From assembly GCA_000961765.1 (NCBI GenBank), contig LADT01000084.1, forward strand, positions 1 through 40,449: a stretch of DNA of 40,449 nucleotides. The letters run 5' to 3'. A model generated the notes under the pieces. It saw nothing but the letters and a program-made list of their open reading frames with translations, was not told the origin of the DNA and made no database searches. The stretch is from Clostridiaceae bacterium BRH_c20a. GTDB taxonomy: Bacteria > Bacillota > Peptococcia > Peptococcales > BICA1-8. This document shows positions 33,461 through 40,449 of the stretch, piece by piece. Made by a program: the position numbers and the translations under genes. Each line of letters begins with the position of its first letter. Position 1 is the stretch's first letter.

Positions 33461-33955
33461 TTAAGAGAAATTTTTCCTCGACTTGTCATGTGTTTCCAGA
33501 AAATAAAGAAAGTCTTCCAGTTCATTTTGAATGTTATTAAATAAATTGGGCAACTTTTTAACTAAAGGCTCTATTTTAGTGGCTGAAAGATTGAGACTAT
33601 ATACATTTCTTACTACATGACGAAAACCTCTATATTCATCCAGACTATTTCTTGTTTCTCTAGAAATAACAGCTGGTCGTACTAGTTCAATTTCAGTAGC
33701 CATTTGGCGCAAGAGTTCTTGATGCCAATTCTCTCCTTGTGGTTTTACTTGATCTACTGTAATAGCAATTAATTCATAAACTCTCTCAAGTGCAGTATAG
33801 AAACTATGGAGATTCAACGCCACACTATCCAGATAAAATTCATCTCCGGACTGCCTTGCACGTTCCCAGCCACCCTGCGTACGGTCAATAATAAGTTTAA
33901 TCTCAGAAATTTCTTCACGTATCCTACCAGCTAAGGTAAGAAATTTCTTATTCAT
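33461..33955 (-). CDS. HepT-like HEPN-domain toxin
   Basis: A 164-residue all-helical protein. The block RNSLDEYRGFRHVVRNVY at about residues 118-135 resembles the HepT-like branch of the HEPN superfamily, ribonucleases or RNA-binding toxins silenced by an MNT partner. The exact R-x4-6-H motif is not seen in canonical form; RGFRH and RNVY stand in its place. The start codon overlaps the stop of the nucleotidyltransferase gene (ATGA), so the pair is translationally coupled with the antitoxin first. Function is from family and context. Confidence 0.75.
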   Translation of the reverse strand: MNKKFLTLAGRIREEISEIKLIIDRTQGGWERARQSGDEFYLDSVALNLHSFYTALERVYELIAITVDQVKPQGENWHQELLRQMATEIELVRPAVISRETRNSLDEYRGFRHVVRNVYSLNLSATKIEPLVKKLPNLFNNIQNELEDFLYFLETHDKSRKNFS

Positions 33956-34335
33956 ACCTCTATCCCCTCAATTTCAATTGCTTTACGCAAAGAAACACGA
34001 CATTCTATAACATCAACTAAATCAATTTTGAACTCTCTAGTTAATCCAGTTACGGCTCCTACCGCTGCATAAAACTTTTCATCAGGTATGCCCCATACCG
34101 CTAAATCAATATCAGACCAACGTGTAAAAGAGGAACGGTTGGTTAAAGAGCCAAAAACCACTACTTTTTGGGCACCGTAGCTTTCTTTTAAGACCATTGC
34201 AGATTTTTTAGCAACTTTCCATGCAGCTTCATAACGTTCAGATAAAAATTGATCCGTTCGGGGGATATCTTCCGTAAAAGTTAAAGGATATTTTTTTATA
34301 TAAAATGTAGCAAATTCTTCGATTTCAGTACCCAT
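33952..34335 (-). CDS. MNT-type minimal nucleotidyltransferase (antitoxin)
   Basis: A 127-residue protein with the polymerase-beta-like motif VVFGSLTNRSSFTRWSDIDLAV, i.e. GS then DxD, with a further acidic strand FKIDLVDVIE. In the characterised MntA-HepT pairs the nucleotidyltransferase inactivates the HEPN toxin by adding AMP to a tyrosine near the active site. The residues for that reaction look intact. AAGGGGGG is 6 nt before the ATG. A good promoter lies upstream at 34378-34406. Confidence 0.82.
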   Translation of the reverse strand: MGTEIEEFATFYIKKYPLTFTEDIPRTDQFLSERYEAAWKVAKKSAMVLKESYGAQKVVVFGSLTNRSSFTRWSDIDLAVWGIPDEKFYAAVGAVTGLTREFKIDLVDVIECRVSLRKAIEIEGIEV

Positions 34336-34377: not shown

Positions 34378-34406
34378 ATTATACCATAACTATACTGTAA
34401 TCTCAA
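34378..34406 (-). promoter_or_regulatory. SigmaA-type promoter of the MNT-HEPN pair
   Basis: On the minus strand TTGAGA (34406-34401) and TATAAT (34383-34378) are separated by 17 nt, 43 bp upstream of the antitoxin start. The rest of the 280-bp spacer to 34615 is AT-rich, with one DnaA-box-like TGTGGATAA at 34581, and shows no gene. Confidence 0.75.
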
Positions 34407-34615
34407 TTTGAACTTATACTTTATAGTATTGTACACAAAATATTTGTTAAAGTGCGTCTTAAGTCCATATAAAAAAATCTTTTTGAGCGAATATAATTAG
34501 TTCTGTACTTCCATATTCTTCAGTAGCCCATACAATCCTTTAAGGCTTTCTGGTCGTTTAGGAAAAAATAAATTTTTTGTTGTGGATAACTATGTTAATT
34601 TAGTAGAATTCAGAT

Positions 34616-35186
34616 ATGGGAATATATGAGAGAAAAACAGCCAATAAAACAAAGATAACGATAAAAGAGGTATTCAAGGAACATTTTTATCTCTTTTATT
34701 CCACATCAAAAGAAGTAATTCCAGAGTGTGTAAGAGAACAAGTAAAAAGCGTAGTAACAAAGATGTTAGAATGTAGAGATCCTGAAAAAGGGTTTTGCGG
34801 AATATATATGCGAAGACTGTCTAGAGAGAATAAAAGTAGCATTTACTTGCAAAAGTAAGTTTTGTGTCTCCTGTGCTAAGATATATATAGATAATTGGGT
34901 AGAGCGGGTAACAAGAATAATATTTGCGGTACGACACCGACATGTAATATTTACTGTTTCTGAAGAATTACGACCAATAATTTATGGACATAGAGAATTA
35001 TTAAAAGACCTTTCAGATTGTGCAGCAGAAGTAATAATAGAGACAATAAGAGAGCGGAATAAAAGTTTAAATATAATGGCAGGAGTAATAGCTGTAATAC
35101 ATACATTCGGGCGAGCATCCAATTTTAATCCCCATGTACATTATGACAAGCTTTCCATAATGTACACATGCTGTGAGGTATCATAA
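34616..35186 (+). pseudogene. IS91-type transposase remnant (frameshifted, 3' truncated)
   Basis: The first 58 residues are in one frame. Removing one G from GGG at 34790-34792 joins them to a second frame that runs to a TAA at 35184-35186. The joined product has a zinc-binding part (CEDC, then CKSKFCVSCAK), followed by RHRHVIFTVSEELRP and MAGVIAVIHTFGRASNFNPH, the conserved core of IS91-family HUH transposases (Zn_Tnp_IS91 and Y2 domains). The sequence stops just after NPHVHY, so the catalytic tyrosine region is lost. This is a dead element that shows earlier mobile DNA in this accessory region. Confidence 0.85.
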
Positions 35187-35359
35187 AGTGTAATCTTGTC
35201 ATCGGAACAAAGCTTATTGCCCATAATTTCCGTCAGTTAACCAGATTTTTCAAAGGGGATATCCGAGAGAAATTAAAAAAAACGCTTAAATTCCAACCAA
35301 GGGATACCTGTCTCTATTTAACAAAGAAAGGGCTGATAAAGGCTGAAAAGGGTGAATAA
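35187..35359 (+). pseudogene. Degraded coding remnant of unknown origin
   Basis: One frame remains open for about 58 codons up to a TAA at 35357-35359, without a usual start codon. It contains GTKLIAHNFRQLTRFFKGD and ends LYLTKKGLIKAEKGE. It reads like protein, with basic helices and a wing-like end, but I recognise no family. It may be part of the same decayed mobile element or a host gene fragment. Confidence 0.35.
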
Positions 35360-35815
35360 TATCAGGTGTAAACCCAAATATTAAAACATTTATACAGCTA
35401 GATGGAATTTTAAAAGAACAATATTCCTTAATTTACCACTTGTTGAAGTGGTGAGAAGTAATTTTACTGCTTTCAGCAGGGGAATCATAAATTGATTTAC
35501 ATAAGAAGGAAGCGGGAGAACTATCCCTATGCTTTTGATGACAATGGCAAATCTTGTTCCTCGGCTGGACAGGAGTTTTCCTCGAAAGGAGCCATCGAGG
35601 AAAAAGAAACATCCTGCTAATAAAAACGTTCACTGTAAGTTATCGGAAATTAGGCTTTATGACATTGGTCTGATATCGCCGCGTCTTCAAATAGTCAATT
35701 GGCTATTTTTTGTCGAAATGTGAAATATTTTGGTGGAAGGTAATTCCAATTTTGAAAGGAAATTAGTAATCGCTTAAATGTTTAGTAGAGGAATAGTTAA
35801 CTCCCTTTAAAATAT
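35360..35815. other. Non-coding spacer with two hairpins
   Basis: Short open frames here look random. Two hairpins are visible: ACCACTT/AAGTGGT (35435-35452, 4-nt loop) and TTTTCCTCG/CGAGGAAAA (35576-35604, 11-nt loop). Nothing else is recognisable. The spacer separates the IS91 remnant from the agr-like operon. Confidence 0.5.
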
Positions 35816-35820
35816 GGTAA

Positions 35821-35902
35821 TCCGGTTTAAGACATAAAAAATCCAGTTTTAGGCAAGAATTATCTAGATTTAGACAAAGCAACAAGGAAAATCCGGATTA
35901 CA
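35821..35902 (+). promoter_or_regulatory. Direct repeats, likely LytTR regulator binding sites
   Basis: TCCGGTTTAAG (35821), TCCAGTTTTAG (35842) and TCTAGATTTAG (35863) are spaced exactly 21 bp apart; a weaker TCCGGATTACA lies at 35892. LytTR regulators such as AgrA bind pairs of about 9-bp direct repeats with a 12-13 bp spacer, i.e. a 21-22 bp period, with a consensus around CAGTT. The array ends about 30 bp before the GTG of the first operon gene, and TAGACA at 35871 could be a -35 box. The operon encodes a LytTR-type regulator, so autoregulation is inferred. Confidence 0.65.
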
Positions 35903-35929
35903 TAAGAAATTACAGAGGAGGTAAAGGTC

Positions 35930-36412
35930 GTGGATAAAATGAGTTTTTTTACCCTTATTGCCATTTCCTTTCCTGAAGTGGTTATTATCCTCGTATTAGG
36001 GTTTACTTTGGGAGGTGTAAAAGTACCTTTAAGAAAGATTATTTTTATCGCATTATTACAAACATTTTTTTCTTATATGATCAGATTTCTACCTTTTGTT
36101 TTTGGGCTTCATTCTCTAATTCAAATAGCTTTTTTTATGATTTTAGTATTTATATTCACCAGACTGCCCTCACGCTCAGTTATTACAAGTATGCTTCTAA
36201 GTTTAAGTCTTTATTTAGTAGTAGAAGTTTCAGTTTTAAATGTATTAAAAAATGTCTTTCATCTTCCTTTAAAAGAAGGATTAGTTGACCCAGCAAAGCG
36301 AGTTATTTATTTTATTCCTCAATTTTTGATCATAGTCTTAATACTGGTTGTTTTAAAAGTAACCAAGTTTAAATTATTAAATTTATCTGAAAGCAGATGG
36401 GATTATGAATAA
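35930..36412 (+). CDS. Multi-helix membrane protein, probable sensor half of a split AgrC
   Basis: A 160-residue protein with about five hydrophobic helices (roughly residues 6-28, 33-52, 59-80, 84-107 and 128-150) and a short charged tail. No catalytic motif is seen. Its size and helix number match the N-terminal peptide-sensing domain of AgrC-type kinases, which is otherwise fused to the kinase core. The next gene is a GHKL kinase with only two helices, and the two genes overlap by 8 bp. The inference is a sensor split over two proteins. The start is GTG 7-8 nt after AGGAGGT. Confidence 0.6.
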   Translation: MDKMSFFTLIAISFPEVVIILVLGFTLGGVKVPLRKIIFIALLQTFFSYMIRFLPFVFGLHSLIQIAFFMILVFIFTRLPSRSVITSMLLSLSLYLVVEVSVLNVLKNVFHLPLKEGLVDPAKRVIYFIPQFLIIVLILVVLKVTKFKLLNLSESRWDYE

Positions 36413-37265
36413 AAAAAATCCTCTGTTTTCTTATTTGGTGCTAATCTTATTTCAATTACTATTACTGGCTCTCTTTAACCTAACTTCTCTTATCCGCGAT
36501 TTGGGGATTTTCGGAGTAAATAATCTTGCGCAGTTTACCTGGTCTCTAAGTCTTTTGTTAGTTCTTCTCACCGCCTATACAGCTATTTTATTTCATAATT
36601 ATTCCCTAAAAGAGAAGAAAGCTGTCAAGGAAAAGACTATTTTGGAAGCCCTAAAATGTATTAGACAGCTTTTAGATACGGTCCGTATCCAAAGACATGA
36701 TTTTGTACAGCATGTTCAGACCGCTTACGGGTTATTAGAGATGGAGCAGTTTGACGAAGCCCGCAAATATTTAAGTGAAATATTTGGCTCTTTAGTTATT
36801 CATGAGGAATTAATCAAAATTAGAAATTATGAAATATTGGCTCTTCTTTTAACAAAAATTGCCCAGGCCGAATCCAAAGAGATAAAACTGCAAATTTTAG
36901 CCGAGACCGACCTTGCTCAATTTTTTCTACCAGCTGCTCAGGTAAACGTTATTTTAGGTAATTTAATTGATAATGCTTTAGAGGCCGTAACCGGTTTAGA
37001 CTCGGCTAAAAAAACTGTCTATCTAAATATTGATGAAGATATAGAAAACTATACATTTACGGTTACTAACTTTGGGCCTTTAATCAAAAAGCCGCTTTTA
37101 GAACGTATTTTTGAAAAAGGGTTTACTACTAAAGAAAAGGGGAAAGGTCTGGGTCTTTATAGTGTCAAACAGACCTTAGAAAAATTGGATGGACATATTA
37201 AAGTAATTAGTGAAGAAGAAGAAGGGACTATATTTCAAGTAACCTTGCCCAAAGGAGAGAAGTAG
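36405..37265 (+). CDS. AgrC-like GHKL sensor histidine kinase
   Basis: A 286-residue kinase. Two transmembrane helices lie at residues 9-30 and 42-63. A dimerisation helix carries the phospho-acceptor His98 in RIQRHDFVQHVQ, the RHDF motif of the AgrC/Spo0B-like class. The ATP-binding domain has NVILGNLIDNALEAV (N box) and EKGFTTKEKGKGLGLYSVKQ (G box). AgrC kinases usually have five to seven helices, so the sensing part is short here and is probably completed by the preceding gene. Predicted partner: the response regulator at 38056. It precedes agrB by 4 bp. Confidence 0.85.
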   Translation: MNKKNPLFSYLVLILFQLLLLALFNLTSLIRDLGIFGVNNLAQFTWSLSLLLVLLTAYTAILFHNYSLKEKKAVKEKTILEALKCIRQLLDTVRIQRHDFVQHVQTAYGLLEMEQFDEARKYLSEIFGSLVIHEELIKIRNYEILALLLTKIAQAESKEIKLQILAETDLAQFFLPAAQVNVILGNLIDNALEAVTGLDSAKKTVYLNIDEDIENYTFTVTNFGPLIKKPLLERIFEKGFTTKEKGKGLGLYSVKQTLEKLDGHIKVISEEEEGTIFQVTLPKGEK

Positions 37266-37269
37266 AAAA

Positions 37270-37929
37270 ATGTTACAAAAGGTTTCTCAAAATTTAGGAA
37301 ATACGTTAGCCAGGGAATTGGCTATGGCAGAAGAACAGGCAGAAGTTATAGCTTATGGTTTAGAAATAATACTGGGTAGTTTAATAAAGTTTAGTGTCAT
37401 TTTATTAATCGCTTATATCTTTGGTATCCTGGGGACTACTTTAACGGGATTTTTAACTTTCATTCTTTTGCGAATATTATCGGGTGGTGTTCACTTTAAA
37501 GGGTATTTTTCCTGTCTGATTATCGGGACTATTATTTTACTTTTAATTGGGAAGATATCAAGTATGGCACATATCCTTTTATCTCTGAATTTGCTAAAGT
37601 TTACTATCCTGTTTACCGGTTCGGTTGTCTTCCTAATTTGTTTACAACTAGCTCCTGCCGAAAACTATAATAAAAAATTAACTGAAGGAGAGAAAAAAAA
37701 ATTCAAATTATTTTCAGGAATATTTGTCTTGTGCTGGATGTGTTTTGCATATTTATCTGTCGTCCTTTCCGGGGGGGAATACAACAATTTCATTTTAGCA
37801 AGTGCACTTGCTTTGTTTATTCAGGGGTTTACCCTAATGCCTCAGGCTTATAAGATAGTAGGATTATTAGAAATGTTAATTTTCAAAAGGAAAGGAGGTG
37901 AACAGTATGTTGAAAAAAGCGTTACTTAG
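37270..37929 (+). CDS. AgrB-like peptide-processing membrane peptidase
   Basis: AgrB cuts the C-terminal tail of the AgrD precursor and forms the (thio)lactone ring. The catalytic pair is visible as His75 and Cys82 in RILSGGVHFKGYFSC, with the 7-residue spacing of S. aureus His77/Cys84. About five hydrophobic segments and a charged cytoplasmic loop (NYNKKLTEGEKKKFK) follow. At 219 residues it is in the normal range. Its 3' end overlaps the start of the peptide gene by 23 bp. Confidence 0.92.
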   Translation: MLQKVSQNLGNTLARELAMAEEQAEVIAYGLEIILGSLIKFSVILLIAYIFGILGTTLTGFLTFILLRILSGGVHFKGYFSCLIIGTIILLLIGKISSMAHILLSLNLLKFTILFTGSVVFLICLQLAPAENYNKKLTEGEKKKFKLFSGIFVLCWMCFAYLSVVLSGGEYNNFILASALALFIQGFTLMPQAYKIVGLLEMLIFKRKGGEQYVEKSVT

Positions 37930-38032
37930 TTCTTTGGCTGTAGTAATTATTACTGTAGCTAATTTAGGGGTTAGTACAGCCAGTTTTTTTACGTTTTATC
38001 AGCCTAAAACTCCTAAGGCATTAGAAAAATAA
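37907..38032 (+). CDS. AgrD-like cyclic autoinducer peptide precursor (cysteine-free)
   Basis: A 41-residue peptide too short for normal gene calling. A basic start (MLKK) leads to an amphipathic or hydrophobic helix (residues 5-22). The core STASFFTFYQPK and the acidic-basic tail KTPKALEK match the AgrD pattern in which cleavage occurs just before a YQP-like segment. Where most AgrD proteins have a ring cysteine there is Ser26, so the predicted signal is a five-residue ring SFFTF closed as a lactone, perhaps with an N-terminal tail such as STA. AAAGGAGGTGA gives a very strong ribosome-binding site. It overlaps the end of agrB. Confidence 0.82.
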   Translation: MLKKALLSSLAVVIITVANLGVSTASFFTFYQPKTPKALEK

Positions 38033-38055
38033 CATTAAAGGGGCGAACTAACAAA

Positions 38056-38607
38056 GTGGTTGTAAAAGTAGTTATAGCCGAAGATGATTCACGTATGCAG
38101 CTTACACTTAAAACGGTCTTGGAAAAAATAGAAGAAGTTAAGGTGATTGAAACAGTCGGTGATGGAATTTCCCTTATCAAGGCTGTAGAGGAGTTAAAGC
38201 CGGATGTTATTTTTGTGGATATTGAAATGCCCGAAATGGATGGTCTGACAGCTACTAAAGAAATAGTAGATATTGACCCCAGAATATTCATTATATTTGT
38301 TACAGGATTTGCAGAATACTCTCTTGATGCCTTTGATGTTTATGCTTTTGATTATTTAATAAAACCTTTTAAAATTGCAAGAATTAGCAAAACTATGGAT
38401 AAAATTAAAAAATTATTACGGGAAAAAAAACTGGCGAAGATTAATGAAAGAGAAATTGAACCGGTAGGCGGTATTCAGAAATTAGTCGCACATATTAATC
38501 AAAAGCTGTTATTTCTTGATATGAAAGATGTTATTATGTTGACCCGTTACGATCGAAAAACCTATATATACGTAGACTCTCGGAAAGTATTAGTAAAAAG
38601 CAGATAA
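38056..38607 (+). pseudogene. AgrA-like LytTR response regulator, truncated in the DNA-binding domain
   Basis: The receiver domain (residues 1-125) is complete: acidic pair Asp10/Asp11, phospho-acceptor Asp55 in VIFVDIEMPEMDG, and the conserved lysine in DYLIKPFK. A LytTR domain begins near residue 140 (KLVAHINQKLLFLDMKDVI) but stops after about 45 of its usual 95-100 residues, so the region with the DNA-contacting C-terminal strands is missing. A terminal repeat of the downstream insertion sequence seems to start at 38575, which would make the last 10 residues IS-derived. The rest should lie beyond 40449. The start is GTG with a weak GGGG upstream. Without the second half, DNA binding is unlikely. 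Confidence 0.8.
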
Positions 38608-40443
38608 AACTCGCAATGAAACAAGCAAAATAGTAAGTCTAAGAAACAGAAAATAATTAAATCAGAAAAATGTGCATTAGAAATAGACCTAGAAAGAGGA
38701 AATTTTAAAAACTAGGCCAGAAAATGTTTGGATGAAATTGTGAGAAAAATTAAGCAGCTACATGTTTCACTTCACTTTCCCACTGAAGAATTAAAGCTTT
38801 GACATCCAGCTTAAGATGCTTAACCATGGCATCAATATGTAAGCACATGGCATCAGCAAAAACCCTAAAGTTCCAAGCTCTGGAACTGCGGATTTTACCC
38901 CTTTTTTCTAAAAGATAATCTTTCTTAAGTCTTTTATTAAAGCGTTCAGAAGAAGTACGACGTTTATAACGTTCTTTCCAGAGAGTACTACCACGAGGGA
39001 TGCGAGTAAAAAGGCGAAGATTATCCTCTTCCCTAGTGTAAATAACACGCCCATAGGAAGAATCGGAACAAGAGGCAGAGCAATTAATATTCCATTTTTT
39101 TCGCGATTTAGGACAGCGCCATTTATGCCGTTGTCGATCCTTGCAATAACCATGATAAGCCACAACATGCTCAGCTTTATTGCAAAAGGGGATACCATCT
39201 TTATTAAAGGAAAAATCATTATTAAGAGCGGAAATACCGGTATTGCGATTATTTAAATCAATGAGAGCAGTGACATTCTTAGTATGCAATAACTCATAAA
39301 TAGAGTAAGCATCATGAGCCGAGTCTAAGATGCATTCACTAAAACTAAACTCAGGATAAAGCTGTAACGCATCAAAAAAGGAATATACAAAAGCAATACT
39401 ATCATGACGGTTAGCCTTATGGAGATAAAGGTAAATAGGTAAATCATAAGGGCTATCGGCTGCAGTAAATGCATAGAGGCTGCGGCCATAAAAGTATTCT
39501 TCCCGATAGCTATCCCAGCCCCAAGTAGCATCAGGATCGCTATACTTACGAGGGCAATTACAATTAAATATTTTACTTTTTCTACAACTGCAAATTAAAT
39601 TTCCTTAACGGCTAGCACCCGTGCGGACTGAGGTACCGTCCCCGGCAATAGAAAGGTTATTTATATTTCCCAAAAGCCCCTTTTGAGCAGAAGGGATGAC
39701 AAAGCACTCCTTAAAGATCTGCTGTAACAGGTCATGAGGACGGGATTTGAAAATAGGTGGATGCTTTAGAAGCCGGTTAACCAAACGTTTAACAGCGCCG
39801 GGTTTTTTAAGAGGTGACTTATCCCCTTTTTTCTTACCTTTTTTAGGTTTACGCCGGGGTTTACGGACCTTACTTGAGATATGAGCAGAAGTAGCTAACC
39901 AAAGACGTTTTAAGAAATCATAAAAAGTACCTACCCCGGGGACATCATTAGGATGAAAGCCACTTAAGATGGCCCAGATGGGAAAAGCCTTCAGGTTATT
40001 GACCCAATCATCAATAGATCTTTCTTGAGTTAACTCCATTAGGAGCAGGGAACGAAAAAGATCTACGGGATCCCGGGAAGGGGCCCCTTTATTAGGAGAA
40101 TAACTGTTATTTAAAATTGTAGCTACTTTACTTAAATCTGTAACCCATACACTAGCTAATTCCCGTTGATGAAGTAAAACAGTTGGAGTTAAACCTGGTA
40201 AAAAGTAATGAACTTTCAATTGTTCAACAACAAATTGTTGAAACTCTTGGTGAGATCTAGAAGATTTCAACATAAAAATCACCATCCAAACCTTGTTAGT
40301 AGGCGAAAAATGCCTCCATCGCGATTATGGTGATGATTTGGATTTGTCAAGTCCTAATTTGTTGTTTGCAGGACTTGGAGGAAAAATGAAAATGGCCCAA
40401 GGTCAAAACCTTGAACCATATAACTTCGGAGTTTCCGAGAGAC
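38575..40443 (-). mobile_element. DDE-type insertion sequence (IS4/IS1182-like)
   Basis: The boundaries are set by a probable terminal inverted repeat: GACTCTCGGAAAGT at 38575-38588 against AGTTTCCGAGAGAC at 40430-40443, which matches 12 of 14 bases with 10 in a row. The transposase gene lies between on the minus strand. Upstream of it are inverted repeats CAAGGT/ACCTTG (40398-40413) and AAGTCC/GGACTT. The right flank is only 6 bp long in this window, so a target duplication cannot be judged. Confidence 0.7.
38750..40285 (-). pseudogene. IS transposase with one in-frame stop codon
   Basis: The frame is continuous over about 511 codons except for a TAA at 39607-39605. The N-terminal part (226 residues) ends at IAGDGTSVRTGASR, just after the first catalytic aspartate. 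The continuation has NCPRKYSDPDATWGWDSYRE, a second aspartate in ECILDSAHDAYSIYELL, and YKRRTSSERFNKRLK, an exact Y(2)R(3)E(6)K signature of IS4-group DDE transposases. No frameshift is seen. It is either a recently inactivated copy or, less likely, expressed by stop-codon readthrough. The family assignment between IS4 and IS1182-like is not certain. Confidence 0.85.
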
Positions 40444-40449
40444 TTATAT

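Follow-up and report, generated by a model that had tools for sequence, protein, structure and literature searches.

An agr-type locus in Clostridiaceae bacterium BRH_c20a with an AgrC receptor apparently split over two genes

Results

Genes and features of the locus

The window, the whole 40,449-nucleotide stretch of DNA analysed here, corresponds to contig C42 in the 4.51-Mb draft assembly of this anaerobe. Five plus-strand genes at 35930-38607 encode a membrane protein (S), a histidine kinase (K), AgrB (B), AgrD (D) and a LytTR-type regulator (R), in the order S-K-B-D-R (Table 1). Curated models (Pfam and NCBIfam) identify AgrB, AgrD, K and the regulator's receiver domain. A preliminary description of this DNA had named the same five genes; four of them are borne out, and the regulator is not present as an intact gene since an insertion sequence cuts its LytTR domain. 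The 8-bp overlap of S with K given there agrees with the coordinates, as do its five- and two-helix proteins with our helix prediction. An Rfam search of 34400-38800 gave no match.

Table 1. Features of the agr-type locus in the window.
Feature	Coordinates	Strand	Description
Three direct repeats, 21-bp spacing	35827..35878	+	Probable boxes for a LytTR regulator in the operon promoter
S	35930..36412	+	160 aa, GTG start; five predicted helices; putative receptor half of a split AgrC
K	36405..37265	+	286 aa; two-helix Spo0B-type histidine kinase; putative transmitter half of a split AgrC
AgrB peptide-processing membrane protease	37270..37929	+	219 aa; PF04647, E 6.3e-35
AgrD precursor	37907..38032	+	41 aa; TIGR04223, E 2.2e-11; predicted ring SFFTF closed via Ser
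AgrA-like regulator, native part	38056..38571	+	Receiver domain (D55) and first third of LytTR; gene broken
Insertion sequence inside regulator gene	38572..40446	not assigned	Ends GTAGACTCTCGGAAA and TTTCCGAGAGACTTA

The membrane protein and the kinase

The S family is absent from the curated databases, with no Pfam or NCBIfam model, and the window S itself has no match in either. When 38 stand-alone S proteins were compared with both collections, no transporter family was found and weak matches appeared in one or two members only, which speaks against the possibility, raised beforehand, that S belongs to an unrelated transporter family. Two residues of helix 1, P15 and E16, do not vary across the 38 proteins, and R52, P55, G59, H61 and P130 are nearly invariant. 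The AlphaFold2 model of the window S (pLDDT 86.6, pTM 0.80) has five long helices at 6-28, 34-51, 58-77, 81-110 and 121-145. The N-terminus of S is predicted to lie outside. No solved structure matches S: a fold search of the PDB with this model returned 12 matches, none at E <= 0.001, and the best VIA-align Z of 5.1 is in a range said to be uninformative for helical bundles. The S profile gave no significant hhalign match to the N-termini of three reference AgrC proteins (Listeria, Enterococcus and Latilactobacillus), and two of the 38 S proteins match the staphylococcal AgrC model (best E 0.0014) in a model region that may or may not be the sensor.

One S member with a Pfam match to SpoIIGA (PF03419, E 0.0011), together with S domains in ~285-aa Clostridia ORFs, raised the idea that S is homologous to the five-helix N-terminal domain of SpoIIGA. 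It was rejected because a profile comparison with 23 SpoIIGA N-termini gave a probability of 4% over 39 columns, and because the ~285-aa ORFs consist of S, helices 6-7 and a DHp stub.

K consists of two helices joined by a short loop, a DHp domain with the conserved histidine and a GHKL ATPase (SPOB_a, E 1.9e-11; HATPase_c, E 6.9e-19; HATPase_c_5 also matched). Its phospho-acceptor H98 lies in QRHDF, and H98, N190, G248 and G250 are invariant. K has its own ATG start. A programmed frameshift joining S and K was considered and rejected, as inspection puts the S stop before the A-run.

Natural fusions of S and K

AgrC receptors are normally one protein. At the window locus sensor and kinase are separate ORFs, and the multi-helix sensor and the DHp and ATPase domains are all present, spread over the two genes. 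In the same genome, contig C60 carries between AgrD and AgrB a single 444-aa ORF that both window proteins (P0001 and P0002) match, its N-terminal part corresponding to S and its C-terminal part to K. Nineteen such fused proteins of 434-477 aa were found, with S at the N-terminal sensor position. By hhalign, S from split loci aligns end to end with the first 165 residues of the 19 fused proteins (probability 100, E 9e-50) and S from loci of the S-B-D form aligns with the fused N-termini at E 9e-35, compared with E 0.4-0.9 for controls against AgrB. Hydropathy places seven helices in most of the fused proteins, at the S positions (15, 48, 68, 91, 137) and then the K positions (177, 216). An AlphaFold2 model of the fused protein L169 (Pelotomaculum), of modest quality (pLDDT 69.6, pTM 0.40), has helices at 15-36, 43-62, 67-86, 90-119 and 130-153, repeating those of the window S at an offset of ~9, followed by the two K helices at 178-214 and 220-276.

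These alignments agree with the earlier proposal of a sensor divided over two genes and support the reading, made from sequence, that the window locus holds an AgrC split in two. We found no description of a split AgrC in the open-access literature, which was the scope of the search.

Recurrence among relatives

Eight AgrB matches occur in the window genome. Besides the fused C60 locus, contigs C44 and C43 each have a split S-K-B-D-R locus whose regulator is complete, C75 carries regulator-S-B running off the contig end, and C22 carries S-B-D without a kinase. An S profile search had matches in 55 of 150 relatives, and in a Clostridia-class sample S was present in 47 of 391 genomes. With the window's own genome excluded, an S gene was found no more than 4 kb away at 69 of 99 AgrB places, and an AgrB gene equally near at 80 of 96 S places. 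Using profiles built in this analysis, three neighbourhood forms recur: split S-K (e.g., Pelotomaculum sp. PtaU1.Bin035 and two Syntrophomonadaceae), fused S-K (Pelotomaculum sp. UBA3103, Thermincola ferriacetica, HGW-Firmicutes-14 and Aneurinibacillus thermoaerophilus) and S-B-D without K.

At 21 split loci, which come from many families, S is the gene immediately upstream of K and has the same orientation. The offsets run from -32 to +59 and fall in all three relative frames, and the two genes overlap in 15 loci. Homologues of S thus recur beside two-helix Spo0B-type kinases and agrBD, as had been predicted for a split sensor. A locus holding both S and a full-length AgrC, which would have spoken against that proposal, was not found for the Spo0B type: no stand-alone S accompanied a full-length Spo0B-type AgrC among the loci examined. 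At six loci (L130, L133, L134, L144, L155 and L160) S stands beside a HisKA-type kinase of another class. The nearest relative found, genome G037, has the five genes in the same order (identities: S 51%, K 57%, AgrB 46%, regulator 59%).

A kinase tree rooted on the three reference AgrC proteins requires seven changes between split and fused forms, at least four of them forced by well-supported branches; fused L151 and split L176, for example, are sisters, and fused L112 falls in one group with split L106 and L036. As read from this tree, split and fused states interchange repeatedly, and either direction is possible. Distance matrices of S and K correlate at 0.62, compared with 0.33 within the fused proteins and 0.65 for S and AgrB; since the S-K value is no higher than that of S-AgrB, it reflects shared inheritance as much as contact.

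Loci without a kinase and other S arrangements

The kinase-less set comprises 23 S genes, mostly with no LytTR gene nearby, and includes S-B-D loci such as L037, L119, L120 and L122, in which the ring residue of AgrD is mostly Cys. In C22 and three other genomes of the window's family, each S-B-D locus has a 279-aa gene upstream, a likeness by length alone. A GGDEF/HD-domain gene lies near C22 and near L133. Among the matches listed for 18 genomes with kinase-less loci, strong matches to short kinase frames (~290-340 aa) that cover the two helices were found in G031, G035, G037, G072 and G087, most of them at agr loci of their own, and the remaining genomes showed larger or partial kinases. 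The S-B-D loci suggest that S has roles beyond those explained by K, so that K may not be its only route of action.

Between two and five S genes stand in tandem at L154 (G031:C5), L153 (G035:C52), L137, L148, L120 and L129; at L154 five S genes lie between the regulator and one kinase, followed by AgrB-AgrD. In Clostridia-class genomes (L280-L291), ~285-aa proteins combine S with two helices and a short DHp stub without the catalytic histidine or the ATPase. An AgrD-like gene (39-55 aa) adjoins in 11 of these 12 loci, and the short flanking stretches examined showed no AgrB.

The peptide, the regulator and its boxes

The window AgrB carries the residues that are invariant in AgrB (R68, G72, G73, H75 and C82). 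In AgrD the ring-closing position, in SFFTF before YQP, is occupied by Ser and not by Cys. The window peptide should thus be a lactone and not a thiolactone, with SFFTF as its predicted five-residue ring. Five positions ahead of the [YH][EQS]P tail, 24 of 32 kinase-linked AgrD sequences have Ser and 16 of 19 from kinase-less loci have Cys (Fisher p 5e-5, relatedness ignored).

An insertion sequence interrupts the LytTR DNA-binding domain of the window regulator. The receiver domain from 38056 is recognised at E 5e-23, and the LytTR match spans only positions 2-33 of 98. The left end of the element is at 38572 and the inverted end occupies 40432-40446, at the right edge of the window; transposase remnants on the minus strand have broken reading frames. 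Further copies of the element were located by the left end on C39 and C65 and by the right end on C38 and C79, and C91 carries a diverged copy. The rest of the regulator gene was not found in the genome, where the other copies of the element were checked and a LytTR scan was made. Intact LytTR regulators are present at C44, at C43 and in G037, whose collinear regulator is complete (250 aa, full LytTR domain). The window copy of the locus may be decaying.

The boxes upstream of S start at 35827 (TTAAGACATA), 35848 (TTTAGGCAAG) and 35869 (TTTAGACAAA); with the same 21-bp spacing they can also be written TTTAAGACAT, TTTTAGGCAA and TTTAGACAA. A two-box scan of the genome with <= 3 mismatches gave 15 matches versus 11 in the reversed control; with <= 2 mismatches there were six, all at C42 or C44. 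Upstream of split and fused loci in relatives, 21 bp had the best mean triple-repeat score among periods 14-30, with box triplets ~80-120 bp from the start codon; at kinase-less S-B-D loci 21 bp was not the best-scoring period. The LytTR-type arrangement consists of direct repeats with a 12-bp spacer (PMC6193735). From their position and spacing the window boxes are probably binding sites of the window's own, now broken, regulator. The boxes of the paralogous C44 locus are very similar to them, and the intact C44 regulator may substitute on the window boxes and take over the output.

Discussion

The locus very probably encodes an Agr-type quorum-sensing circuit in which two polypeptides together make up AgrC. 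The five-residue lactone would come from AgrB and AgrD, and S, with its five helices, would serve as the receptor module for K, the two-helix transmitter with its DHp and ATPase domains. We infer that S and K associate in the membrane as the equivalent of a seven-helix AgrC dimer and that peptide binding to S alters autophosphorylation of K at H98. The phosphate would then move to D55 of the regulator, which could bind the three boxes upstream of S and give positive feedback. In the window strain, with the DNA-binding domain of the regulator cut, the output would be lost or would pass by cross-talk to the C44 regulator.

It is also conceivable that K alone is the sensor and that S is an accessory of signal production, such as a partner of AgrB or a protein for peptide export or immunity. 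Many loci, including C22 and those of three other genomes in the family, do have S next to AgrB-AgrD but lack a kinase, how the peptide leaves the cell is not known even for S. aureus (PMC10482373), and a truncated AgrC with the last two helices only still responds about two-fold to peptide (PMC3841183). This reading is nevertheless unlikely given that S is joined in frame to a kinase in 19 proteins, always on the sensor side, and no S-AgrB or S-AgrD fusion was seen; K, moreover, offers only two helices and a short loop, and the split and fused forms replace one another repeatedly. That S functions as a membrane inhibitor of the LytTR regulator, like HdrM or BrsM of the LytTR Regulatory Systems, is the least probable explanation. 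The direct repeats before the operon do recall those systems (in which most repeats are 12 bp apart; PMC6193735), but S is coupled to a kinase, has no match to a Pfam inhibitor family and at kinase-less loci is mostly found away from LytTR genes.

The insertion in the window regulator invites the thought that the locus is degenerating and that the split arose by decay of an ordinary AgrC gene or from a sequencing error in it, which we regard as very improbable here and which is already refuted for the family as a whole. The 21 split loci come from many families, the nearest relative is also split at the identities given above, and C44 and C43 are split beside complete regulators; the spread of S-K offsets over all three frames and the ATG of K likewise argue against it.

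The locus can be compared with several described systems. It shares with the staphylococcal and Listeria Agr systems (AgrBDCA) the AgrB and AgrD families, a multi-helix sensor with a kinase, a LytTR regulator and promoter direct repeats. It differs from them in its separate sensor and kinase genes, in the order S-K-B-D-R, in a Spo0B/DcuS-like kinase, and in an S with no sequence similarity detectable to the three AgrC sensors compared with it (Listeria, Enterococcus and Latilactobacillus); it has 5 + 2 predicted helices, compared with the six usually modelled in S. aureus (PMC10482373). Residues 134-430 of S. aureus AgrC, two helices and the cytoplasmic part (297 aa), form an active kinase alone (PMC3841183). 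This truncated protein, TM5-6C, is close to K in length and is cut at the same place; it is a laboratory construct, whereas K occurs naturally, as does the partner that supplies the other half. The C. perfringens agr-like operon (CPE1563-CPE1562-agrB-agrD) also has hypothetical genes co-transcribed upstream of agrB, and an agrB mutant was complemented by a four-gene clone and not by agrBD alone (PMC2706048). There, however, VirS is the reported receptor (PMC7492741), and the likeness of our locus to CPE1562/CPE1563 considered here is one of gene arrangement. The LytTR Regulatory Systems likewise encode a membrane protein behind a promoter that carries LytTR-type repeats (PMC6193735) but differ from the locus described here, which has a histidine kinase and a receiver domain.

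According to a 2023 review, no full-length AgrC structure has been obtained and the peptide-binding site is unknown (PMC10482373). A natural, separate receptor of 160 residues is a minimal object for binding and structural work, and the S/K split is a natural test of how the signal crosses from the receptor to the kinase helices. With no curated S model and S near many AgrB genes, the usual search for full-length AgrC would miss many Agr-type receptors as well as the kinase-less loci.

More tentatively, S could be a portable peptide-receptor module wired to varied outputs: K in trans, K in cis, tandem arrays with up to five receptors for one kinase, the kinase-dead stub with an AgrD-like gene in Clostridia, and no dedicated kinase at all. 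If so, the kinase-free forms of S would sense or sequester peptide by a non-classical route and not by phosphorelay.

Additional observations

At C44 (L035, C44:38000-46000), three triple-box arrays were seen: one in front of S (43664-43715), one behind the regulator (40584-40635) and one ~1 kb upstream (44650-44701). The second and third resemble each other and precede a strong ribosome-binding site with a very short ORF, and one of these two lies ~200 bp before a gene for a 139-aa, probably secreted protein. The extra arrays are possibly a regulon of the Agr circuit.

PHROG 15604 matches four of the 38 S proteins weakly, and tblastn and IMG/VR scans queried with a related S found nothing. 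In BFVD, two uncharacterised phage proteins, A0A8S5PKY4 and A0A8S5S981 (165 and 158 aa), have a predicted fold similar to the window S model (probability 1.00 and 0.99; TM 0.64 and 0.60), but at E 0.17 and 0.31. Two neighbouring genes on the minus strand of the window at 33461-34335 are possibly an MNT/HEPN toxin-antitoxin pair; the 127-aa gene at 33952-34335 resembles a nucleotidyltransferase (GSLTNRSSFTRWSDIDLAV).
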